Shown here piece after piece: positions 10,247-42,907 of a DNA stretch of 54,015 nt. Under the pieces are notes generated by a model. It searched no databases. It had not been told where the DNA came from and worked only from the letters and a program-made list of their open reading frames with translations. Origin of the DNA: a virus; IMG/VR virus record IMGVR_UViG_3300037247_000257, positions 1-54,015 of that record; one strand, written 5' to 3'. Position numbers and translations under genes: made by a program. The stretch's first letter is position 1; each line of letters opens with the position of its first letter.

Positions 10247-10573
10247 TTATACTTTTCTTAATCTAAACAAAGCTTCATTTAACTCTTTTTGAGTTTTATT
10301 TAGCTCTTCTTCTACGTATTCAAGCTTCCACTTATAACGCCCTACTTCTTTTAACGCTTCTTTTCGGCCTAACTCAGCCTCAGACTTTTTTCGTTTTTGA
10401 ATAGCATCGTTAATATAGTTTATCCGCTTACTAGAAACATCTATTATCTGAAACATTCCGATAAAGAAAACTGACGCAAAAGCTATGTTTCCTAAAATGA
10501 ATCCTGCTATTGCACCAGGGTGAACTTTTCCTATCTCATAGGTGTAGTCCATCCATTTTATCCACCACTCCAT
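10247..10573 (-). CDS. Membrane-anchored coiled-coil protein
   Basis: 108 residues. An amphipathic Trp-rich start (MEWWIKWMDYTYE) leads into one membrane segment (AIAGFILGNIAFASVFFIGMF, about 21-41). A long charged helix to the end (KRINYINDAIQKRKKSEAEL...) shows clear coiled-coil periodicity. It should sit in the inner membrane with a cytoplasmic or periplasmic stalk. Its start shares one base with the stop of the Pnkp gene. No known family. Confidence 0.6.
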   Translation of the reverse strand: MEWWIKWMDYTYEIGKVHPGAIAGFILGNIAFASVFFIGMFQIIDVSSKRINYINDAIQKRKKSEAELGRKEALKEVGRYKWKLEYVEEELNKTQKELNEALFRLRKV

Positions 10574-11481
10574 TAGAAATTACCTTCTTGTACTTGATAT
10601 ACTTTCAAACCTAGACGTCTTGCATGGTCTACAACCTGGTTACGATCATCGTAAAGAGCTTCTATGAAATACGACTTAGCGATATCTCTCCACATATCTT
10701 CTTTGACTTTCCAATCAGGTTCATACGATCCTTCAGGTCTGATATAGATATCATCATATACAATATCATTCTCCGCCAACCAAGCCATAGTCTCTTGGAT
10801 ACAAGAACCATCACGACCAGTACAGATAATAATAAACTTCCCGTTATTTTGGTGAGCCCAAAGAGCTTCTCTAACGTTTTCATCAACTATATCTTGACCT
10901 ACCTTTTTCCAATCATATGGTTTTCTGTCTACCATGTGAGCAAGAGTACCATCAATATCAAAGATAACTGCTCCTTGTTTAGAAGCATCTCTCGTTATTG
11001 GCTTAGTAATCTTATCTTGCTTGAAGTCATAAGTAGCAATGAGATTCCTGTATTGCTCGTACTGTCTATCGATGACTTCTTTACCGACTTTACGAGCACG
11101 GTCTTCATCATTCATTATACAGTCGATCTTTTCAGTTTTCATTACATGACACTCAACCGGAACACCATAATGACTTAACTGTCTGATATACTTTTCTTTA
11201 AGGTGAGTATTGTCAACTATTACTACTTGGTTACAAGACAAAGCGTATCTAATTAAAGTGTGTTGAAACTGACTTACGTCCCACTCTTTACTTTTTATAT
11301 CTTCCGCTTCGTACCACTGGTGTATATCTTTTTCAGATAAACCTCCCATCATTTCTCGAAGTTTATCTCTGCCGATAATAACACAGTTTTCTCCTTTTTT
11401 ACGAATAGCTTCTGCTAAATAGCGAGCTGTCGTTGTTTTGCCGGATCCACTTGGCCCGACCATTGCTATAATTCTACTCAT
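10573..11481 (-). CDS. pnkP: Polynucleotide 5'-kinase / 3'-phosphatase
   Basis: 302 residues, almost exactly the length of T4 Pnkp. The N-terminal kinase has the P-loop GPSGSGKTTTAR (9-20, Lys15), and the C-terminal HAD phosphatase has FDIDGT (Asp175, Asp177). T4-type enzymes turn 2',3'-cyclic phosphate and 5'-OH RNA ends into 3'-OH and 5'-phosphate ends, which an RNA ligase can then seal. An RNA ligase gene is upstream in the same operon, giving a complete RNA repair pair. The start is the ATG at 11481, overlapping the preceding stop as ATGA; a longer reading to 11565 has no support. Confidence 0.93.
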   Translation of the reverse strand: MSRIIAMVGPSGSGKTTTARYLAEAIRKKGENCVIIGRDKLREMMGGLSEKDIHQWYEAEDIKSKEWDVSQFQHTLIRYALSCNQVVIVDNTHLKEKYIRQLSHYGVPVECHVMKTEKIDCIMNDEDRARKVGKEVIDRQYEQYRNLIATYDFKQDKITKPITRDASKQGAVIFDIDGTLAHMVDRKPYDWKKVGQDIVDENVREALWAHQNNGKFIIICTGRDGSCIQETMAWLAENDIVYDDIYIRPEGSYEPDWKVKEDMWRDIAKSYFIEALYDDRNQVVDHARRLGLKVYQVQEGNF

Positions 11482-11705
11482 TGTTTCTGATCTTCTAAAT
11501 ATGCTATAGTACCTATTACCCCTACTACTGTTGCTATCAAGAACAGTACAAATGCTACAAAGCACTGAGCTGATGTACCTTCTTTTGATACAATAGCCCC
11601 TAATAAGCTAATAAGCATAATTACGCAAGATGTGATTGTTGACCCGATTAAAATCCTATGTATAAGATTGTCGGGTTGTTTTTGTGAATATCTGGAATCT
11701 TCCAT
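11478..11705 (-). CDS. Small two-helix membrane protein
   Basis: 75 residues with two hydrophobic segments (about 20-38, LIGSTITSCVIMLISLLGA, and 47-67, FVAFVLFLIATVVGVIGTIAY) and charged ends. It begins 58 nt inside the upstream gene and its stop overlaps the Pnkp start as ATGA, so it is translated from the RNA-repair operon. No family recognised. Confidence 0.6.
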   Translation of the reverse strand: MEDSRYSQKQPDNLIHRILIGSTITSCVIMLISLLGAIVSKEGTSAQCFVAFVLFLIATVVGVIGTIAYLEDQKQ

Positions 11706-13555: not shown

Positions 13556-14598
13556 TCTATCTCCTTTCTAAGTTGAACAAACCCTCTAAAGTTACCTGAC
13601 CAGCCTTCTTCAATCACTCTATCCGTAGAGCCAACCGCTTGAGTTGTTCTAGCATTGAACATCATTTCTGACCCACTCATAGCTCTAGCGCAGTGCTCGA
13701 AAGGACTCATGTGACCCATAGCTTTCAATCTATCATAAAGCTTAATATCAGCTTCATAATCATCTTTACCTTCAAAGTTTAGATAAGATACTCTAGCACA
13801 TCTAGCAGTAGCTATCTTAACTCTGCAATCTTGAATAAAACTAAAGGGTACAGATGTTTCTGCTCCTTTATATAACTCACAAATTCTAGCAGAATCAATA
13901 TTGTCTTCAAATGGTATATGCCACTCACCAGCTTTCAACTCTTTAGGTTTAGACTCATTCATAGCATCCCACATAGCTTCAGCTAGTAGAGAGATATGGA
14001 TTTCTCCTTGTCCTTTGTTGATTTTGAGCCAGTCTAAGTCACTAGTTTTACTTAGTGTTTCTTCGTTTCCTCCGTGATAGTGTTTCCAATAGTCTTTCCT
14101 CGACTTAAACTTAGAGTTCTCGTTATCTGGACTGCCATACTGAGGACATCTCAACTCAAAGAAGTTATCATACTCTGTAGCAGTTACAATACAAGTGTAC
14201 CATTGGAAAGGTTCTAAGATACGGTTTACTAGTTGTTTGGTTACTCCGTTAGAGTTCATTGTTCTAGCCATATCTAAAACACCTCTAAGACTACGTTCCC
14301 AATCACACACATGAGCCATTATTTCCGATTCTTTCTCAAAATACTCAGTGCCTTGCATACCACTATGGGTTTTTTGGAACGCTACAGGAATGAAAGGATC
14401 TTCTTCTATATCCTTAATCATTTTGCTCGCAGGTATAGCACGACTACTAGCAGCATTACGTGAGAATAAACGGTGTGTAAGTAACTCGGCATGGATAATT
14501 CTTGGATAAGAAAGGACATAGGTTGTAATCCTATTACCATGCTTGTTAACACTATCTGCAATAATCTCTGCATTAATATTCTTTTTATTCATACTCAT
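13552..14598 (-). CDS. thyX: FAD-dependent thymidylate synthase
   Basis: 348 residues. THRLFSRNAASSR (41-53) matches the ThyX signature RHRxxSxNxxSxR with the initial Arg replaced by Thr. A second cluster near 265-330 (ARCARVSYLNFEG, then MSPFEHCARA) corresponds to the conserved C-terminal part. The protein is longer than typical bacterial ThyX (about 220-250), like several phage versions. It makes dTMP from dUMP using methylene-tetrahydrofolate and FAD, supplying thymidylate for phage DNA. The ATG overlaps the RNA ligase stop (ATGA). Confidence 0.9.
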   Translation of the reverse strand: MSMNKKNINAEIIADSVNKHGNRITTYVLSYPRIIHAELLTHRLFSRNAASSRAIPASKMIKDIEEDPFIPVAFQKTHSGMQGTEYFEKESEIMAHVCDWERSLRGVLDMARTMNSNGVTKQLVNRILEPFQWYTCIVTATEYDNFFELRCPQYGSPDNENSKFKSRKDYWKHYHGGNEETLSKTSDLDWLKINKGQGEIHISLLAEAMWDAMNESKPKELKAGEWHIPFEDNIDSARICELYKGAETSVPFSFIQDCRVKIATARCARVSYLNFEGKDDYEADIKLYDRLKAMGHMSPFEHCARAMSGSEMMFNARTTQAVGSTDRVIEEGWSGNFRGFVQLRKEIE

Positions 14599-15974
14599 GA
14601 CTCTGCCTCTTCTGTGTCTACTGTTCCAGAATCTTTAATGATACCTTCTAGTACTTTAAACAAGTAACCTTTCTGCTTCAAGAATTTAGGCGTTAATGAT
14701 TCACCATCGATACGAATACATACACCTTCTCTTAAGTGCATAGGAAATACAGTAGATGGATCTTCACCCATAGAAACTACACGGTTAGAAATAGCTTCTT
14801 GCTGAACATGAAAGTGTAGAGTTTCTTCTGCTTCTGACATAGCTTTAGCTTTGATTCTCTTAAGCTCAGGCACATGTTGTACTCCCATTTGCTCACATCT
14901 CATCTTAACTTGGTCCCAAGATAAGTCCATCGACACTCCGTCCATGTTAGTCATAGTCATACGATAAACAAAGACTTTACATTCTTTAGGTTGGCACCCA
15001 TAAGTAAATGATGTAGTATTACCGTAAGCTTCAACAAAGTCTTTATAAACATCTTTATCCATAAAAGACTTAAGCTTCTTGTTACCTTGAGAAGGCATGA
15101 TTAGTTTCCCATCAGGTAAATACCCAACGATCTCATAATACACAGTCTCACCTTTTTCAAGCTTATCTCTAAACAATTCTCCAGTCGTAGTCCAAATGTC
15201 GTGCTCATAATACGATTCACCTTCTTTAGCTACATCACCAATAGTCTTTGTTACTCTACGCGAACCTACTACATGCTTATAAACCATGTGTTGATTCTCG
15301 TCGTTGGTTTTAAAGAGAACTTTACTTAGTAACCAGCTAGAAAACTTCTTTAACAGATTATCAGTTTTATAAATAACTGGCAAGTTGCCCACTCTACAAC
15401 TTGTTCCATGGAGCTTTTCCGTTACGATAAGAATCGAGCCTGGCTTTACATGCTGTAAGTTTCTCATAAATTGATCAGTATCGACATGCTCTTTGAACGT
15501 AGGTACTAGGTTTTCCTTAGCTTTTCCCTGTTTGTTCCCTTGACACGGGGAATTACTTACAACTTGATACTTCTTGCAGATTTCGTAGCTTCCCCAATTC
15601 ATGAACTGTTGCCCAAGGTTACTTTTATCTGGTAATTGCTTGTCTTTGTGAGTATATTCTAGTGAACTAATTGGCATCCATAACCCAGAACATTTTACAC
15701 CTTTTAATCGAATTGGTCTAACACGTCTGCTATCTTCAAGATAACCTGTTTTTGATTCGTCTACGTTTAAGTTAGAATGTCTGTACAAGTTGTTTTTTGA
15801 ACAAAACTCGTGACTTAACTCAGTTTCACAGTCAAATAAAATACCTAGTTCACCAGCTTTGTGCTCTTTACTCACAATAACTGTTTCTCCGAATATCGTA
15901 CTACTTACGATGCGGTCGGCTCCTTCAATAGGCTGAAGGTCTTTTAGTTCCGCGATGATTGCTTCTCCTGTCAT
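14595..15974 (-). CDS. RNA ligase (Rnl5/DraRnl-like architecture)
   Basis: 459 residues. An N-terminal OB-like domain (about 1-110, GADRIVSSTIFGETVIVSKE) is followed by the nucleotidyltransferase domain. Motif I is TEKLHGTS with nucleophile Lys187, motif IIIa is VYYEIVGY, motif IV is REGVCIRI and motif V is KGYLFKVLEG. An N-terminal OB domain ahead of the ligase domain recalls the DraRnl class. It would join RNA ends after Pnkp healing, most plausibly tRNAs cut by host anticodon nucleases. It is first in an eleven-gene leftward operon that also contains Pnkp, just past a terminator. Confidence 0.85.
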   Translation of the reverse strand: MTGEAIIAELKDLQPIEGADRIVSSTIFGETVIVSKEHKAGELGILFDCETELSHEFCSKNNLYRHSNLNVDESKTGYLEDSRRVRPIRLKGVKCSGLWMPISSLEYTHKDKQLPDKSNLGQQFMNWGSYEICKKYQVVSNSPCQGNKQGKAKENLVPTFKEHVDTDQFMRNLQHVKPGSILIVTEKLHGTSCRVGNLPVIYKTDNLLKKFSSWLLSKVLFKTNDENQHMVYKHVVGSRRVTKTIGDVAKEGESYYEHDIWTTTGELFRDKLEKGETVYYEIVGYLPDGKLIMPSQGNKKLKSFMDKDVYKDFVEAYGNTTSFTYGCQPKECKVFVYRMTMTNMDGVSMDLSWDQVKMRCEQMGVQHVPELKRIKAKAMSEAEETLHFHVQQEAISNRVVSMGEDPSTVFPMHLREGVCIRIDGESLTPKFLKQKGYLFKVLEGIIKDSGTVDTEEAES

Positions 15975-16306: not shown

Positions 16307-16336
16307 CAAATTTAAGTTGTCCGGGGAGGGATCGAA
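16307..16336 (-). promoter_or_regulatory. Bacteroidota-type promoter overlapping tRNA-Gln
   Basis: Minus-strand TAAATTTG (16307-16314) fits TAnnTTTG. About 18 nt upstream TTCG (16333-16336) could act as the -33 element and lies inside the T-loop of the tRNA-Gln gene. It would drive the small basic protein. Confidence 0.5.
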
Positions 16337-16387
16337 CCTCCATTCTCGGCTTCAAAGGCCGGCGTCCTGCCATTAGACGACCAGACA
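16317..16387 (-). tRNA. tRNA-Gln (UUG)
   Basis: Acceptor TGTCTGG pairs with CCGGACA. The anticodon loop CTTTGAA gives anticodon TTG, on a CGGC/GCCG stem with a mismatched outer pair. The T-arm is GGAGG-TTCGATC-CCTCC. No CCA is encoded. It is the most distal tRNA of the leftward cluster. Confidence 0.88.
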
Positions 16388-16590
16388 ATAATACAGAGTG
16401 TTCTTTATACCGTTAAACTCTTACAAACATTCTCAATGCGTGGAAGTGAGCACGGTTTTCACTTACTAAGGCAAACCCGTTCGCTACCACACTCCTTCAC
16501 TATATACCGTCGCTTCATTCCATAGCAGCTTACCTTTATCACAGCGCTATAATAAAGACCACAGTATAATCCACTTAGCCGGCACTTCCG
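16388..16590 (-). other. Spacer between tRNA-Gln and tRNA-Thr, structured
   Basis: About 200 nt with no tRNA. On the minus strand ACGG(G)TTT...AAACCGT forms a stem (about 16452-16481), and CTTTAT...ATAAAG forms another near 16530-16555. A 19-codon frame (16459-16518, MKRRYIVKECGSERVCLSK) is present but unsupported by coupling. It may be a processed spacer, an sRNA or a microprotein. Confidence 0.35.
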
Positions 16591-16662
16591 AGGTTCCACA
16601 CAGATTCGAACTGTGCTCTGCTGATTACAAGTCAGCTGCATCACCAACAATGCTTTGGAACC
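16591..16662 (-). tRNA. tRNA-Thr (UGU)
   Basis: Perfect acceptor GGTTCCA/TGGAACC. The anticodon stem GCTGA/TCAGC encloses loop CTTGTAA, anticodon TGT. The T-arm ACAG-TTCGAAT-CTGT is intact. No encoded CCA. Confidence 0.92.
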
Positions 16663-16667
16663 TTGTG

Positions 16668-16739
16668 GGTGTCTTCGGGATTCGAACCCTGCTATCCGGA
16701 AGCACAACCCGGCGTAGTCGCCCAGACTACTTAAGACAC
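16668..16739 (-). tRNA. tRNA-His (GUG), T-arm shortened
   Basis: Acceptor GTGTCTT/AAGACAC, anticodon stem CCGGG/TCCGG with loop TTGTGCT, anticodon GTG, and discriminator C as expected for His. Only four bases lie between the T-loop TTCGAAT and the acceptor 3' strand, so the T-stem is one pair short or the loop is six. The D-arm is an unusually long perfect stem. It may be functional with a non-standard elbow, or decaying. Confidence 0.7.
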
Positions 16740-16741
16740 AG

Positions 16742-16813
16742 TGGAGAGAGAGGGATTTGAACCCCCGACTCCCAGATTTTCAGTCTGATACTCTACCCCT
16801 GAGTTACCTCTCC
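16742..16813 (-). tRNA. tRNA-Phe (GAA)
   Basis: Acceptor GGAGAGG/TCTCTCC (one G-U), anticodon stem TCAGA/TCTGG with loop CTGAAAA (anticodon GAA), and T-loop TTCAAAT. It is 2 nt from tRNA-His, so the two are processed from one precursor. Confidence 0.9.
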
Positions 16814-16901
16814 ATGGCTCCAGAGATTTTAGATCTTTACTCCAGAACTGATCAGCTTTTACCCACACTCCTCGTGGGTCCTCACAACCAGCTAAGTCGT
16901 T

Positions 16902-16979
16902 GTCTAGGTGGCAAGATTCGAACTTGCGTGCTCGTCCTTCCAAGGGACGCGAGATAAACCGGACTCCTCTACACCTAGA
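16902..16979 (-). tRNA. tRNA-Pro (UGG)
   Basis: Acceptor TCTAGGT/ACCTAGA, anticodon stem CGTCC/GGACG with loop CTTGGAA (anticodon TGG), and T-arm GCAAG-TTCGAAT-CTTGC. It is the first tRNA of this group; a terminator-like hairpin ends a few bases upstream. Confidence 0.92.
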
Positions 16980-16981
16980 TA

Positions 16982-17019
16982 TAAAAAAAACCCTAAGCTC
17001 TTGGTGGAACTTAGGGTTT
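16982..17019 (-). terminator. Terminator-like hairpin directly 5' of tRNA-Pro
   Basis: Minus-strand AAACCCTAAG ... CTTAGGGTTT (10 bp, 12-nt loop) followed by a run of Ts. The T-run ends about 2 nt before the tRNA 5' end. It looks like an intrinsic terminator for the three barrel genes, yet leaves no room for a tRNA promoter. Confidence 0.8.
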
Positions 17020-17124
17020 AGTTAGTCAAAACAGCAGAAATCAATCACACACACCTAAGTTCCGTCCTATAAAGGTCGGTTGAAATGGCGTATTATGTTG
17101 TGCTATCTTGTTCATATGGTAAAC

Positions 17125-17349
17125 TTAGTCAAAGCTTTTTACTTTTGCAACCATATACTTGATATTATTACAAGAAACTCTTCTTTTGTAACCATTTATC
17201 ACATCTGTTGTGTGTGTTCTTATCATTAAGGTACCACAATCTGTCTGGTGTATTATTACACCATACTGCAAATAACCTGTGTTACTTACAAAGACTTTAT
17301 CTCCTACAAACAAGTCTTTACCGTTTATATCTGTTTCTGTTATTTTCAT
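17125..17349 (-). CDS. Small barrel-like protein A
   Basis: 74 residues. The core GKDLFVGDKVFVSNTGYLQYGVIIHQT looks like a five-strand SH3/KOW-type barrel, with a basic C-terminus (GYKRRVSCNN). It is coupled to the preceding gene by a 4-nt overlap. The opening VGDKV...YGVI pattern recurs in the two genes upstream, so the three may be diverged copies. Barrels of this type often bind nucleic acid or protein tails. Function unknown. Confidence 0.6.
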   Translation of the reverse strand: MKITETDINGKDLFVGDKVFVSNTGYLQYGVIIHQTDCGTLMIRTHTTDVINGYKRRVSCNNIKYMVAKVKSFD

Positions 17350-17570
17350 AATACCATGATCATTTTTTCAGAGTTACCGTTTTGAACCAGTCTCCATAAA
17401 CCTCTGTTACCATCAGGATCAATAAGAATATTACCGTTTTTGTATCTTCTTACAGTACCTGTCCAAATTCGATGTCCCCAATCACCGTAAGCAACTCTTG
17501 CTCCGACTTTAATTTTTTTTCCTTTTACGTCTAGATGTAATTCTGACTCCTCCATTTCTTGTAAGTGCAT
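17346..17570 (-). CDS. Small barrel-like protein B
   Basis: 74 residues, starting at 17570 or at the internal ATG 17555. The core KKIKVGARVAYGDWGHRIWTGTVRRYKNGNILIDPDG is a clear small beta-barrel pattern, like KOW/Tudor-type domains with an arginine pair. It overlaps the gene before it by 62 nt (47 with the shorter start) and the one after it by 4 nt. Its VGARVAYGD motif parallels CGDFVAYGG in protein C. Function unknown. Confidence 0.6.
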   Translation of the reverse strand: MHLQEMEESELHLDVKGKKIKVGARVAYGDWGHRIWTGTVRRYKNGNILIDPDGNRGLWRLVQNGNSEKMIMVL

Positions 17571-17694
17571 ATTGTTCTTTTACGTGTTTATGAAAAGCGG
17601 AATTTAATTCTTCTACAAAAGCATCGCCTCCGTAAGCAACAAAGTCTCCACACTGAACTTTGTTTAATCCATTTTTATCTCTTGTAACTTTCAT
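17509..17694 (-). CDS. Small barrel-like protein C beginning next to tRNA-Ser
   Basis: 61 residues. It starts with KVTRDKNGLNKVQCGDFVAYGG, has a helical centre and ends in a run of Arg/Lys (RITSRRKRKKN). Its ATG at 17694 lies one base after the discriminator of the tRNA-Ser gene. Cutting at the tRNA 3' end would therefore leave a nearly leaderless message. No other start is available in frame. Nucleic-acid binding is suggested by the basic tail. Confidence 0.55.
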   Translation of the reverse strand: MKVTRDKNGLNKVQCGDFVAYGGDAFVEELNSAFHKHVKEQYALTRNGGVRITSRRKRKKN

Positions 17695-17695
17695 G

Positions 17696-17781
17696 TAGAG
17701 AGACCGAGATTCGAACTCGGGGGCCCCAGAAGGACCACTCCCTTAGCAGGGGAGCGCAATCGACCGCTCTGCCATCTCTCT
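17696..17781 (-). tRNA. tRNA-Ser (GCU)
   Basis: Class II tRNA. Acceptor AGAGAGA/TCTCTCT, anticodon stem CTCCC/GGGAG with loop CTGCTAA (anticodon GCT), a long variable arm, and T-arm CCGAG-TTCGAAT-CTCGG. The discriminator reads A rather than the usual G. Confidence 0.9.
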
Positions 17782-18034
17782 AAGATACCGGTTCTCGTAC
17801 CGGCAAACGCTCTTTGATATGCTTAAGGCTATTATGACGTGGTTCGCACACACGCGTGTCGCACCTAAGCAGCATACCCTCATCTTCCTCCGAGTAGAGG
17901 TAAGTATATATCGCGACACTCTAAAGTTTCAGGTGGAAAGATTGTTACACCTTCAATTATTGACCGGTGAGAGACAAACTCCCGGTCACTCTTTCCTAAA
18001 GACGCCTCCTTGTCTGGCTGGGTCACCCCTACTG
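17782..18034 (-). other. Structured spacer between two tRNA-Ser genes
   Basis: About 250 nt with no tRNA and no coupled ORF. It holds at least three inverted repeats: CCGGTacgagaACCGG next to tRNA-Ser(GCU), a GCGACACGCGTGTGTGC element, and GACCGGGAG...CTC(A)CCGGTC near 17970-17995. It is more GC-rich than its surroundings. A rightward frame of 150 codons crosses two tRNA genes in antisense and is not credible. An unassigned small RNA is possible. Confidence 0.4.
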
Positions 18035-18120
18035 CAGAGGGACAGAGATTCGAACTCTGAACAGTGTTACCTGCTACTGGTTTTCAAGACCAGCTCCTCG
18101 TCCAACCACGGACTCCCTCT
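18035..18120 (-). tRNA. tRNA-Ser (UGA)
   Basis: Class II tRNA. Acceptor AGAGGGA/TCCCTCT with discriminator G (serine identity), anticodon stem CTGGT/ACCAG with loop CTTGAAA (anticodon TGA), a long variable arm, and T-arm CAGAG-TTCGAAT-CTCTG. Confidence 0.92.
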
Positions 18121-18690: not shown

Positions 18691-18905
18691 AACTCACAGT
18701 GGATAGATCTGTCACCAGACGTACGTTTATTATACTTGTCATCTAACTTTTTTCTTTCTTCTTTTTCAAGACCTCCAAATAAAGTTGCAAAAGCATCTGC
18801 TTTTTTTTGGGATATCCTTGTTTGATAAGGTCCTTCTGCATAGTCGACTAAAGCAAAACCAAGAATGATACCTCCTAGTAATCCTAGAATAATTACAAGT
18901 ATCAT
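18687..18905 (-). CDS. Small membrane protein downstream of SPFH gene
   Basis: 72 residues. An N-terminal membrane segment (LVIILGLLGGIILGFALVDY) is followed by a charged soluble tail (KADAFATLFGGLEKEERKKLDDKYNK) with helical character. Its ATG overlaps the SPFH stop (ATGA), so the two are likely produced together and may be partners in the membrane. No family recognised. Confidence 0.6.
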   Translation of the reverse strand: MILVIILGLLGGIILGFALVDYAEGPYQTRISQKKADAFATLFGGLEKEERKKLDDKYNKRTSGDRSIHCEL

Positions 18906-20293
18906 TTCTTGTTCTTAATAGCGTCTAAGATAAGAAGCTGCATAGGATCTCCGCTTTTGCTACCAGAACCACCACCAATGTAAGTAGTAGGTAACTTAAG
19001 TTTAGATAATGCTTCAGCTTTAGCTACTTCAGCATCTAACTGCATCTTAAGCTTAACTTCAGGAGTAATACCCGCGATAACTTTCTTCTTAATCTCATAA
19101 GCTTCAGCATCAGCTTTTACTCTTTTCTTCTCAGCATTAATTTTCTCAGTTTCTAAAGCTATCAAAGCTAACTCTTTATTAGACTTTTCTTCTTGAACTT
19201 TAGTCTCTTTAGCAATCAAGATAGATACAGCAGCTTTCTCTTGTTTAGATCTTTCTGCTTCCTTATCTCTCTCACCTTCAGCTCTGATACGTTGTTGCTC
19301 CATCTTAGCAGTCTCGATCTTTTGCTGTTGCATTTGACGCTTAGCAGATTCGTCTTTCTGTTTGTTAAGTCTTGCCTGGTAGCCAGGGTCCATTTTAACT
19401 TGATCAACGATAACACTAGTTACTATAATACCATTTTCAGTAATCTCATGTGGAATTCTGATAGGTACACCGTTTTTAGTGATTTTCTCTACTACATATC
19501 TTACAGAGATATCTTTAATCTTTCTTTTAACTTTAGTATCCGTGATATCTGAAGTATAAGTAGTATCTCTATATTCATTCTTACGAACTTTATAAGTACC
19601 GTCTGTAAGTTGTTCATCAAACGCTTGTCTAAAAGACTGAGCATCACCCGAGATGTAATCTTGAGCGGAGAACATATAACCAGTTTGGATAGCTTGCTCA
19701 CGTACAGTTGGTAATAAAGTTTGGTGAACTAAGTTTTCCATAGTTCTAAACTTCACAGCCATTTTAATGAACTTCTCAGGATCCTTTGGTAGTTCAAACT
19801 TCGATGTAAGCGACATGTCAGCAGTTACTTGGTCAACAAAACGAATAGGAATCGGCTTCATAGCCCCTTCTACTTCGTCACTGATTTCACCGTAAGATGC
19901 TTTAACATCGATGTATTTCTGCCATTCTTGCACTTTAACAAAAGGTCCTACGTAATGATAACCTTCGTCCATTATAGCACTTTTAGAACCACCTGGTTTG
20001 ATAATCAAATACTGGTACCCAGCTTCACCATACATTAAAGTGTTACTAATGAAGAATAGACCAAAACTAATCAACAACATAACAACTCCTTTTTTCCAAC
20101 CAGCTATCGCTAGTAAAATAGCAGGAGATGCTTCAACCGCTACTTTCTTAGTTATTTTCTGCTCCTTCCATCTGTCCCACTCTTCAACTTCCTTAACCTC
20201 TGTCTTTTCTTGCAGCGATAAGAAACTAGTACCAATAGCTACAGCACCTAGTATTAGCAAGATTATTCCTGCGAGTATAATTAAACCAATCAT
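18902..20293 (-). CDS. SPFH (stomatin/prohibitin/flotillin) membrane protein
   Basis: 463 residues. It has two hydrophobic segments (about 1-24 and 69-90), then an SPFH-type domain (about 90-300, with VKVQEWQKYIDVKASYGE and an EKFIKMAVKFRTMENLVHQT region). A long Ala/Glu/Lys/Gln coiled coil follows (about 305-430), ending with a Gly/Ser-rich tail. SPFH proteins form membrane rings or microdomains and often scaffold or restrain membrane proteases. It is flanked by small membrane proteins and a HAD phosphatase, and lies in the same operon as the NAD-salvage genes. Its phage role is not established. Confidence 0.8.
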   Translation of the reverse strand: MIGLIILAGIILLILGAVAIGTSFLSLQEKTEVKEVEEWDRWKEQKITKKVAVEASPAILLAIAGWKKGVVMLLISFGLFFISNTLMYGEAGYQYLIIKPGGSKSAIMDEGYHYVGPFVKVQEWQKYIDVKASYGEISDEVEGAMKPIPIRFVDQVTADMSLTSKFELPKDPEKFIKMAVKFRTMENLVHQTLLPTVREQAIQTGYMFSAQDYISGDAQSFRQAFDEQLTDGTYKVRKNEYRDTTYTSDITDTKVKRKIKDISVRYVVEKITKNGVPIRIPHEITENGIIVTSVIVDQVKMDPGYQARLNKQKDESAKRQMQQQKIETAKMEQQRIRAEGERDKEAERSKQEKAAVSILIAKETKVQEEKSNKELALIALETEKINAEKKRVKADAEAYEIKKKVIAGITPEVKLKMQLDAEVAKAEALSKLKLPTTYIGGGSGSKSGDPMQLLILDAIKNKK

Positions 20294-20715
20294 TTGTTCT
20301 TTTCTTTAAAGTAATTTAATAATTCAACCCAATCACGGTCTGGGTCAAAACCGGCTTTATCGTCTAGCAAGACGTTGAAATAAGGCTTTTTATCAAAGTT
20401 CTGAAACTCATTGTTCTCAAGGCCCATACTAATCTGTACAAGACGCCAAGGCGTCATAGCTATATCACAAGACATAAAGTATTCTAAGTAGAACGCTTTC
20501 GCTTCTTGTGGACTACAAGTATACATGTACATCATAATATTAGGATTCTTACTCATTAACTGTAAAGTTTCTTTTGCTTTCGCGTAAAAACCTGTAGACA
20601 GTTGAGTTGAGTAAGTGGGTTCGAAAACAGTGCCATGGAGATCCACGGCAACTGCTATCTTATCCCATCCTCGGTGTTTCATCAAATCAAAAGCTTTGTC
20701 AAACACTTGTATCAT
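20290..20715 (-). CDS. HAD-like phosphatase/nucleotidase
   Basis: 141 residues. AVAVDLHGTVFEP (about 21-33) is a HAD motif I with the second Asp replaced by His (D-L-H-G-T). MMYMYTCSP (about 61-69) serves as motif II, and NVLLDDKAGFDPDRDW (about 113-128) provides the acidic motif IV. D-x-H-G-T is an uncommon variant, so activity may differ. It lies between nadV and the SPFH gene with 4-nt overlaps, which suggests action on a nucleotide or phosphosugar of the same pathway, or on a protein phosphate. Confidence 0.65.
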   Translation of the reverse strand: MIQVFDKAFDLMKHRGWDKIAVAVDLHGTVFEPTYSTQLSTGFYAKAKETLQLMSKNPNIMMYMYTCSPQEAKAFYLEYFMSCDIAMTPWRLVQISMGLENNEFQNFDKKPYFNVLLDDKAGFDPDRDWVELLNYFKEKNK

Positions 20716-22127
20716 AACTTTGCTCTGTTAATTATGTTAGGCCATACTGGCGCAGACATGATTTTACCATTTTCAAAGACTACTTCTAAGACAGATTCAG
20801 CACCAGGAGCACTATTCTGTACTGTTCTGAAACCTTCTTGAGAACGTTCTAACGCAAGGAAGCCAAGTTTACTCTTCTTAAAAGAAGCATGTTTGTCCCC
20901 ATTACCATCAATTTCTGTTGGAGCTTTGAATACATCTTTCCATTCACCGTTAACACAGATGGCAGAACACTTAAACGCGAACTTCTGTGTATCTCGATTG
21001 ACTTTCTGCAGTAAAGCGCCACCCATCCCAAAGGCTAGGTTCTCTGTACTGTATCCAATCATGTTTATGTACTCAAGAGTCTCTCTCAGACTATCATAGT
21101 TCATACCGTCTCCTTGGATAACTCTTATCTTAGGATTCAAGATCTTGTAACCATTAACAACTTCACCACCAAATACCTTCCATAATTCAGAAAGTACTAC
21201 TTGCAATGTCATCTTAATGTCACCAGAATCAGGTCTAACTACTAAAACACCGTCTCTCGAAATAATCTCAGTTTTCAATGACGCCCAGTGTGTTCTACAC
21301 GCTTCTTGTATATCATAAGAATCTGAAACACAAGCTACTAATCCTGTTGGGTATTTTTCGAGCATGTTGCGATAAGCATCCACCTCATTTTGTTTTCCCC
21401 ATGACGTAATAGTACTGTGTTCAGATGCCGGGATAGAATAAGAAGGCATCATTGATGTTTTGTAGTATTCGTGAATGAAAGGTATTGCTACCAATGTATC
21501 AGAACCTACAAAGTTGATTAAGTGAGCTGCCCCACCTAGTGCTGCAGTTTCTACACTACTTGCACCTCTAAAACCAAAGTCATGCATCTTAAAAGACAAA
21601 GCAGTCTCAAATTCAGCATGACTAGGATAGTCGGTTGTTTCTTTTAAACTTTTACTAATTAGCTTCTTGCACTCTCTACTTAATGTTGCCACTGTAGTAG
21701 GATACCATACTTGTAATAACAAAGTCTCTAAGAAGTTAGTTAACCAAAAACACTTAGGATCAGTGTTCATAACCGTCATTAAGACGTTACTTACACCTAC
21801 AACAGTACCTTCTGGCACAGCTTCTATACGAACTGGTAATCTTCCACCGTGGTTTTCTACAATATGCATCCAACCTTCAATGTTAAATGTCCCCTTGCCC
21901 ATATGCGAGTCTACTATAGTTGACGCATGTAATACATCAGCTTTAGTAATTCTGTAACCTTCTAAATACTGTTTAAGTATATAGTGCAAACCAAAGAATA
22001 CTGTTTCTTCAAACTTTCCTCCTCGGCTCTCTAAGTATGAATAAACATACTCTGTACCTTCAGGGTACTGTCTTGCATGTGACTGCTTATAAGAGTCAGT
22101 CAACAACATGATATTATTGTTCCACAT
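20712..22127 (-). CDS. nadV: Nicotinamide phosphoribosyltransferase
   Basis: 471 residues, matching NAMPT/NadV. The N-terminal LLTDSYKQSHARQYPEGTEY (8-27), the MHDFGFRGASS block (181-191) and SEHSTITSWGK with catalytic His237 are all typical, as are LVACVSDSYDI and LVVRPDSGD. It joins nicotinamide to PRPP to give NMN. The next gene upstream (NadM-Nudix) turns NMN into NAD+, so the pair can refill NAD+ in infected cells, including after depletion by NADase defence systems. It overlaps the NadM gene by 14 nt. Confidence 0.95.
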   Translation of the reverse strand: MWNNNIMLLTDSYKQSHARQYPEGTEYVYSYLESRGGKFEETVFFGLHYILKQYLEGYRITKADVLHASTIVDSHMGKGTFNIEGWMHIVENHGGRLPVRIEAVPEGTVVGVSNVLMTVMNTDPKCFWLTNFLETLLLQVWYPTTVATLSRECKKLISKSLKETTDYPSHAEFETALSFKMHDFGFRGASSVETAALGGAAHLINFVGSDTLVAIPFIHEYYKTSMMPSYSIPASEHSTITSWGKQNEVDAYRNMLEKYPTGLVACVSDSYDIQEACRTHWASLKTEIISRDGVLVVRPDSGDIKMTLQVVLSELWKVFGGEVVNGYKILNPKIRVIQGDGMNYDSLRETLEYINMIGYSTENLAFGMGGALLQKVNRDTQKFAFKCSAICVNGEWKDVFKAPTEIDGNGDKHASFKKSKLGFLALERSQEGFRTVQNSAPGAESVLEVVFENGKIMSAPVWPNIINRAKL

Positions 22128-23079
22128 AATTCTTGATTATTTGTTTGTGATCATCTAAAATCTCCAAAGTACCAGCACGTAATTTATGCAAGCTTATCCA
22201 AGCTACTTCTTCTAAATCATCTCCAGCTTTTATATTACCTTGACACCACTTTAAGATAAATACTGTTGTAAACACTGCGTCTTTAGAACCACGATACCTA
22301 CGATCATTTAACTTTCTTGTCTCAAAATACGTAGGGTACTCTAAGTGTTCAAAGTCTAGTCCTGTTTCTTCATATACTTCTCTAACAACAGCATCTTCAA
22401 AAGACTTGTCAGATAAATCAACATGGCCACCAGGTAATCTCCACTGCTTTTCACCATGTTTACGTCCCATAAGAATGTAACTTACACCATTTTTACGCTT
22501 AGTTACAATAGCATCTACTGTTGGGTAAATGTTACCGTAAGGCTTAAACGTTTGAGCAGCAACTTGTCCAGCACGAAACCATTTGGCTTGTTCAGTAGTA
22601 CTTGGTGTTGGAGGATACTTTCTAATTTTAGTCGCTGATACATTAGGTAATGATTCTATTTCAGAAAACTTAAACTTTCCTGAGTAATATTTATTAAAAG
22701 AATCTCTACCTCCCATCAACGTTATATCAGTTGTATCAGGCACAAGAGTCATTCTCTTATGCATGTCAACAGTATCATCTAAACTCTTAGACCAAAGTTC
22801 ATCTGAAAATGGTATATCTTTCAACTCACCTACTACTACAGTAATATCAGTTCTGTTATGCCATTGTTCATTAAACAACCATTGTTCTATCATAGCCTTG
22901 CGACTACGTAGTGGTAAAGGATGTACCGATGTTGGATTATCACTAGTATAACCTACAAGAATTACACACATCACTTGGGCACGCTCTATAGCTAATCTAA
23001 TTAACTTTTCGTGCCCTTCGTGTAAGTAAGGTGTCTGAAACCTACCTACAACTACCGTAATATCATTTACTTCCGACAT
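22114..23079 (-). CDS. nadM: Bifunctional NMN adenylyltransferase / Nudix hydrolase
   Basis: 321 residues. The N-terminal nucleotidylyltransferase has GRFQTPYLHEGH (12-23) with the HxGH ATP site and an ISATKIR-like VSATKIRK segment (about 147-154). The C-terminal Nudix domain has LPGGHVDLSDKSFEDAVVRE with EETGL following (about 215-241). The first Nudix Glu appears to be Lys, while the catalytic REVYEE is kept. It makes NAD+ from NMN; the Nudix domain may hydrolyse ADP-ribose-type compounds. It overlaps both neighbours, giving a compact NAD-salvage cassette. Confidence 0.92.
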   Translation of the reverse strand: MSEVNDITVVVGRFQTPYLHEGHEKLIRLAIERAQVMCVILVGYTSDNPTSVHPLPLRSRKAMIEQWLFNEQWHNRTDITVVVGELKDIPFSDELWSKSLDDTVDMHKRMTLVPDTTDITLMGGRDSFNKYYSGKFKFSEIESLPNVSATKIRKYPPTPSTTEQAKWFRAGQVAAQTFKPYGNIYPTVDAIVTKRKNGVSYILMGRKHGEKQWRLPGGHVDLSDKSFEDAVVREVYEETGLDFEHLEYPTYFETRKLNDRRYRGSKDAVFTTVFILKWCQGNIKAGDDLEEVAWISLHKLRAGTLEILDDHKQIIKNYVEQ

Positions 23080-42353: not shown

Positions 42354-42727
42354 TGGAGACGCAGGGAGTCGAACCCTGGTCCAGCGAAGCACTATGTCCA
42401 CACGATATACGAACGTAAAGGTTTTAAAGCTCCACAGCTACATCTTATTTACTGTAGGTGCCAAACAGAGCAGCGTTTTACATCTCTACCCGATGGATTC
42501 TAGTGTGACTAGTAACTTGTGCAACTTTCTGTTCCTCCGTAGTTACAACGGGCGCGATCCTATGCTGCTACAGCTACAGGTGCCACAAGGGCTCTCGCTT
42601 CGGTAAGTAAACTTACCATGATTGTCTCGTCGTTTCCGATTAAACAGTTGGAACGTTTTTACAGTGTCTCATTCCATCACTGGCCGCGTGTGTACATAGT
42701 TACAACCTGTCAATTCCGGTCGTCCCC
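42354..42727 (-). ncRNA. ssrA: Transfer-messenger RNA (tmRNA)
   Basis: The 5' end GGGGACGACCGGAATTGACA and 3' end GGTTCGACTCCCTGCGTCTCCA form a tRNA-like domain. The 7-bp acceptor contains G3-U70, the alanine identity pair, and the T-arm is CAGGG-TTCGACT-CCCTG. The resume site TAATC-GGA-AAC-GAC-GAG (GGA at 42635-42637) mirrors the E. coli TAGTC-GCA-AAC-GAC-GAA. The tag frame runs 25 codons to TAG (42560-42562), beginning GNDETIM and ending APVAVAA. It would rescue stalled ribosomes and mark the peptide for proteolysis. No CCA is encoded. Confidence 0.93.
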
Positions 42728-42730
42728 ATG

Positions 42731-42771
42731 TAAAAAGAACTCGGTACATGAATTAACTTTACCGAGTTCTT
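42731..42771 (-). terminator. 12-bp terminator-like hairpin directly 5' of tmRNA
   Basis: AAGAACTCGGTA...TACCGAGTTCTT is a perfect 12-bp inverted repeat (42735-42746 with 42760-42771). On the minus strand it is followed by TTTTTAC, then the tmRNA begins about 4 nt later. It looks like a strong intrinsic terminator or a processing signal. The 136 nt upstream of it (42772-42907) hold no gene that I can support. Confidence 0.8.
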
Positions 42772-42907
42772 ATAATTATTATTCTTTCTTTGCTTTTTAG
42801 TTACTTCGTTTTGTTTTATGAGTAAAAAACGAATAGTATAGTAGCAGACAGAAACCCAAATTCTGCGCCACCTCCTTGCTGTTACTCGCTTGTAACTTGC
42901 CTCCTAG

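Follow-up and report, generated by a model that had tools for sequence, protein, structure and literature searches.

What does a phage do with a tmRNA whose tag runs to 25 codons, and is such a gene real and in working order? The locus lies on the minus strand of the 54,015-nt window, the whole stretch of DNA analysed here, a 54-kb linear viral fragment. An earlier note had read it as a phage tmRNA and had suggested that the longer tag could change which host protease or adaptor meets rescued proteins. The features on which the argument rests are the following.

42354..42727, minus strand: tmRNA (ssrA) gene, mature length 374 nt, one-piece standard form, placed by Rfam model RF00023 and by acceptor/T-stem pairing at both ends
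42721..42727, minus strand: 5' strand of the acceptor stem, GGGGACG, paired with 42355-42361 and including G3-U70
42355..42361, minus strand: 3' strand of the acceptor stem, CGUCUCC, with the discriminator A at 42354
42362..42378, minus strand: T arm, CAGGG-UUCGACU-CCCUG, 5/5 pairs
42650..42682, minus strand: H-type pseudoknot PK1, CAGUG/CACUG + GGAAUG/CGUUCC, read by eye from the sequence
42560..42637, minus strand: tag frame with resume codon GGA, 25 sense codons GNDETIMVSLLTEARALVAPVAVAA and stop TAG (ARAGORN)
42602..42617, minus strand: P5-like hairpin GGUAAGUUUACUUACC within the tag frame (Rfam alignment and MFE fold)
42737..42769, minus strand: hairpin GAACTCGG/CCGAGTTC, then TTTTT, immediately 5' of the mature tmRNA (from sequence)

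The locus is a complete one-piece tmRNA gene. In the covariance search that the earlier note had called for, RF00023 covers positions 42727-42351 of the minus strand over the full model (1-374), scoring 76 bits (gathering score 47; E = 8e-28). The tRNA-like ends and the G3-U70 pair described in that note are indeed present, with 7/7 pairs in the acceptor GGGGACG/CGUCUCC and 5/5 in the T stem. The gene does not encode CCA, its 3' end reading CUCC-A-CUU, and 12 nt separate the end of PK1 from the resume codon GGA. The PK2-PK4 region is included in the full-length model alignment, but here with low posterior confidence.

ARAGORN recovers the same 25-codon tag, although it sets the 5' end at 42875. 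We discarded that end in favour of 42727, because the start GGGGACGACCGGAATTGACAGG fits a 5' pattern, GGGGNYGANYGGAWTTGACAGG, whose bacterial matches are nearly all from Bacteroidota and mostly ARAGORN tmRNAs (70 of the 80 loci checked from bacterial genomes); this start also pairs 7/7 with the 3' end. Upstream, the terminator-like hairpin and its TTTTT stop a few bases short of the tmRNA 5' end and leave no room for a promoter in between. This element may be a leader hairpin or terminator-like, serving as a processing leader or an attenuator. A search for a promoter of the window tmRNA identified none.

The tag itself reads as the earlier note had proposed. The resume site TAATC-GGA-AAC-GAC-GAG is found at 42642-42626 of the minus strand, the open reading frame (42637-42560) comprises 25 sense codons followed by TAG, codon 7 is an ATG (at 42619), and the C-terminus is PVAVAA, that is, AVAA-TAG. 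In the Rfam alignment, the P5 helix GGTAAGTTTACTTACC lies within the tag frame, with a 25-nt insertion 3' of the helix; the tag is therefore long because its frame crosses both. Since a frame would by chance end in Ala-Ala just ahead of its stop in only about 0.1% of cases at the local base composition, the long frame is best taken as a real tag rather than an accidental read-through, and it is likely that the extended frame bears the degradation signal. The claim that the tag starts like the bacterial one, with NDE, stands only in part: NDE is reminiscent of the E. coli tmRNA tag, but the tags of the likely host phylum, Bacteroidota, read GENNYALAA, ADDYSYAMAA and the like.

By its best terminase and polymerase matches, the carrier is assigned to the crAss-like phages (Crassvirales), with Fipvunavirus phages matching too. 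The terminase is closest to that of Cellulophaga phage phi14:2 (Crassvirales; 32.5% over 97%), the DNA polymerase and the helicase are closest to those of crAssphages (36% to crAssphage cr52_1 for the polymerase), and Sak4, rIIA and tail genes are also encoded. No tmRNA was seen in three polymerase relatives (53-62% identity, fragments), and 0/9 gut crAss-like records gave one above the gathering score, so that the gene looks sporadic within the crAss-like group. Closer relatives of the window tmRNA were sought with its resume site and its tag core, without success, and no DNA match to it was found among phages. Recent capture from a host was considered: the tRNA-like part of the window tmRNA has its nearest counterparts, at about 75% identity, in Cytophagales tmRNAs, but on the tmRNA tree most phage tmRNAs stand apart from those of hosts, with weak support, so that either origin is possible. 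No SmpB gene was found in the 54-kb record.

A partner gene beside the tmRNA was considered and rejected: in other phages, homologues of the 229-aa gene downstream are found several kb away from the tmRNA. Other phage tmRNAs do have small conserved neighbours, which may merely track phage lineage. We note several further genes in the window. A NAMPT gene adjoins an NMNAT/NUDIX gene at 20712-23079 (minus strand), an NAD+ salvage pair that is possibly a counter-defence against NAD+-depleting immunity. An RNA-repair pair, a polynucleotide kinase/phosphatase (10573-11565, minus strand) and an RNA ligase (14595-15974, minus strand), lies near a cluster of seven tRNA genes at 16316-18120. A spore photoproduct lyase-like protein (PF20903; 12704-13555, minus strand) and a Band_7/SPFH protein (18902-20293, minus strand) are encoded as well.

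Is a tag of this length simply the habit of the host phylum? Host tmRNAs were collected in two sets, the first by a pattern resembling the window 5' end and rich in Sphingobacteriaceae, the second drawn across Bacteroidota rather than by naming the hosts of the cultured phages discussed below. In 162 of 165 ARAGORN calls the tag has at most 12 aa, usually 9-10. Of the other three calls, two resolve to short tags and the third is a questionable additional call, its locus having a short tag too; the long or odd host tags that ARAGORN gives in L325, L326 and L331 were rejected as misread short tags. The ending [YF]x[LM]AA is found in 157 of the 162 short tags, and AVAA in 0/162, against 12/32 long phage tags. 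Tags as long as that of the window are thus absent from the sampled host phylum.

Phages differ. The one-piece tmRNAs of Bacteroidota phages frequently have tags between 21 and 49 aa long (median 34 for the 31 that were set beside the window tag). When viral contigs were scanned with the 5' pattern, several phage types, among them some of 270 kb, showed tags of 21-40 aa, and other phage tmRNAs had tags of 8-11 aa. For a second scan the query was a conserved upstream stretch that takes no account of the tag; it gave 37 loci. Nearly all readable tags among them contain the core Q[VI]xANMxxVxx[LI][LI] (for example QVEANMNMAFSLIRED), behind which come a linker that varies and, in most cases, an end rich in alanine, frequently AVAA; one long phage tag ends ...FSLIREDVAVAA. 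Long tags of 30-38 aa also occur in four isolates: FpV4 (GNTNNSVVSLEDNAQVEANMNMAFSLIREDVAVAA), Calle_1 and phi38:1 (both GNNTNAVNAQIEANMEAVNAILNLEVAVGV), and phi14:2 (GNDTDNTQLKANMTVVHNILNGSDALIGSSVQKLAMVA, read by hand where ARAGORN gives a shorter frame). The phi14:2 tmRNA scores 46 bits, one under the gathering score, with E = 1.8e-18; among the records of these four phages, only that of Calle_1 annotates a tmRNA. On sequence evidence, the long tag is a trait common to many Bacteroidota phages and not the quirk of one.

Four side observations concern these phage tmRNAs. The 271-kb phages with tag GNTNFWSLVNESVNAPVTEELLAA encode SmpB too (PF01668, E = 2e-45; L343, the record of L017, G124:C1:108268-108678, minus strand), and thus both partners of trans-translation; this is the only type with SmpB among 20 phage records. 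Some phage contigs hold tmRNA-like genes, about 115 nt long and without a tag, that consist of the tRNA-like domain only (L026:269-385 and L088:4806-4919). They resemble the form in mycobacteriophage DS6A, and a similar molecule has been reported to inhibit tmRNA (PMC4131195). A group I intron (RF00028, 96 bits) sits near the T-loop region in the 3' part of a long-tag phage tmRNA (L021:2766-2989, minus strand). In the L015 and L024 phage tmRNAs, which score above the Rfam gathering score, the T loop reads TATCGTA- in place of TTCGANT.

The core family allows the meaning of the extra length to be addressed. Among 28 distinct core sequences, the codons of the fixed residues vary synonymously, with a pN/pS of 0.39 and pS near saturation. 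These 28 were chosen by an expression naming some of the residues, which inflates the conservation; the tag-blind set of 37 loci is free of this flaw. Synonymous changes under fixed residues, including those before the Met codon, point to selection on the peptide, and we conclude from this codon pattern that the tag of the large core family is under selection at the protein level. The same pattern bears on the idea that the codon-7 ATG opens a micro-protein of its own, made without trans-translation. The ATG occurs in the window and does not vary within the core family, but the Q, A and N before Met are equally invariant with synonymous changes, so that conservation applies to the frame read from the resume codon, and Met is absent from several long tags (L017, L048). 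We consider a separate micro-protein highly improbable.

Protein-level conservation of an internal core in the large family, and the repeated occurrence of long phage tags when those of hosts are uniformly short, also argue against an ordinary phage tmRNA in which the added length is a by-product, the stop having moved out of P5 to leave a neutral linker before an AVAA that alone works. There are, in turn, observations that such a linker would explain. Tags differ widely in length and sequence, and L013, L051, L052, L067 and L077, aligned to the core, show no likeness beyond that of shuffles. On the tmRNA tree, where most phage tmRNAs stand apart from those of hosts with weak support, short-tag and long-tag phages are intermingled. 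A scan for the core of the window's own tag gave no match, so that this tag has no relatives among the sequences searched. We hold the neutral linker to be possible but doubtful. No helical amphipathicity beyond that expected from composition was found in the tags.

The ends of the tags bear on two further readings. C-terminal Ala-Ala is kept in 28/32 long tags, whereas the host form [YF]x[LM]AA remains in 1/32, and two tags end in GV or VA. The near-complete replacement of the host ending, together with the two divergent ends, would suit a tag that protects or parks its products, the altered ends slowing degradation and ribosome rescue being the sole benefit to the phage; the widespread Ala-Ala, needless on a non-degradable tag, makes this quite improbable. 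Alternatively, the long tag could steer products away to a different protease, for instance Lon. ClpXP is present in Bacteroidota, and the ClpX-like Ala-Ala end is kept in the window and many other long tags, both of which speak against such a redirection. A precedent exists in Mycoplasma, which according to PMC3985003 is without ClpXP, ClpAP and Tsp and has a tag ending in AFA, not ALAA; the co-evolution of its extended tag with Lon is given by the title of Ge and Karzai 2009, cited there. Redirection to Lon seems to us unlikely, if somewhat less so than parking.

How close is the window tag to the other long tags? It falls within the broad long-tag class of Bacteroidota phages, being phage-encoded, longer than 20 aa and different at its end from the host [YF]x[LM]AA, but it lacks the core QxxANM and so lies outside the core family as defined. 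Like the tag of phi14:2, it begins GND. Its segment MVSLLTEARALV aligns gap-free to MDALLNEAKSIV of L024, and against its own shuffles the window tag is closer to the long tags (p ~0.003 for the best match, 0.014 for the mean); with L024 removed, p is 0.17 and 0.03, respectively. The likeness to the shared core consequently rests mainly on one locus. A scan with the L024 core also struck two unrelated proteins, which indicates that motifs this short turn up by chance. Kinship with the core class is thus suggestive, while the shared trait of length with an ending unlike that of the host is solid.

Taken together, the reading that we judge probable is that of a working phage tmRNA acting through host SmpB, an AVAA degron and a second contact. 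Once expressed, the RNA would be charged with alanine via G3-U70, in line with established tmRNA biology, and would enter the stalled ribosome with host SmpB. Translation would resume at GGA, adding Ala and then GNDETIMVSLLTEARALVAPVAVAA before release at TAG, and the degradation ending would be shifted from about codon 9 to codon 25. Most likely, (I) the C-terminal AVAA would still send the product to a host AAA+ protease, e.g., ClpXP, and (II) the added hydrophobic internal segment would make a second contact, with an adaptor, another protease or a chaperone, by which tagging during infection would differ from that of the host. We infer the second contact from the peptide conservation in the larger family and from the case of Mycoplasma, where the extended tag goes together with a change of protease. 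That the longer tag alters which protease or adaptor sees the product, as first suggested, fits the evidence, given that long tags recur, the core is conserved as protein and the host ending is swapped, often for AVAA. A more specific version, held only tentatively, is that the internal segment may be a phage-made targeting peptide read by a dedicated adaptor or host factor, giving proteins from stalled ribosomes a different fate; if true, phages would rewrite the ribosome-rescue label and not merely supply more tmRNA.

Because long phage-specific tags recur, often with a conserved core, phages seem to alter what happens to unfinished proteins. A systematic difference from the host tag, with protein conservation in a large phage family, indicates that the label and not only ribosome rescue is selected. 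tmRNA occurs in 2.3% of phage genomes, and the roles suggested for it there include maintaining the translation machinery and degrading host proteins to obtain amino acids (PMC9004378). Cultured phages make the question testable: FpV4 on Flavobacterium psychrophilum, and phi38:1 and phi14:2 on Cellulophaga baltica.

Phage tmRNAs as such are already known, including huge phages with tmRNA and SmpB (PMC7162821), as is one 25-aa phage tag. In the literature searched, mostly open-access main texts, we found no description of long, conserved, phage-specific tags in Bacteroidota phages. Compared with the standard tmRNA of RF00023, the window gene has the same tRNA-like domain, G3-U70, PK1, resume codon and tag ORF in a full-length match, but 25 codons, where the most frequent tag length is 10 (PMC11915505), and a frame that runs through P5. 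FpV4 (Fipvunavirus), Calle_1 and phi38:1 (Pervagoviridae) and phi14:2 (Crassvirales) share with it the one-piece form, the GGA glycine resume codon and a long tag without the host ending; they carry QxxANM, which the shorter window tag lacks. Mycobacteriophage ET08 (Bxz1 type), among the tmRNA phages listed in PMC4131195, likewise encodes a 25-aa tag (ATDTDATVTDAEIEAFFAEEAAALV), but it is an actinobacterial phage, its tag ends in ALV and it has no significant best match to the long tags compared. The extended Mycoplasma tag (PMC3985003) is similarly lengthened, with its end changed together with the protease; in contrast to the window tag, it belongs to a cellular gene, ends in AFA and serves a host without ClpXP.
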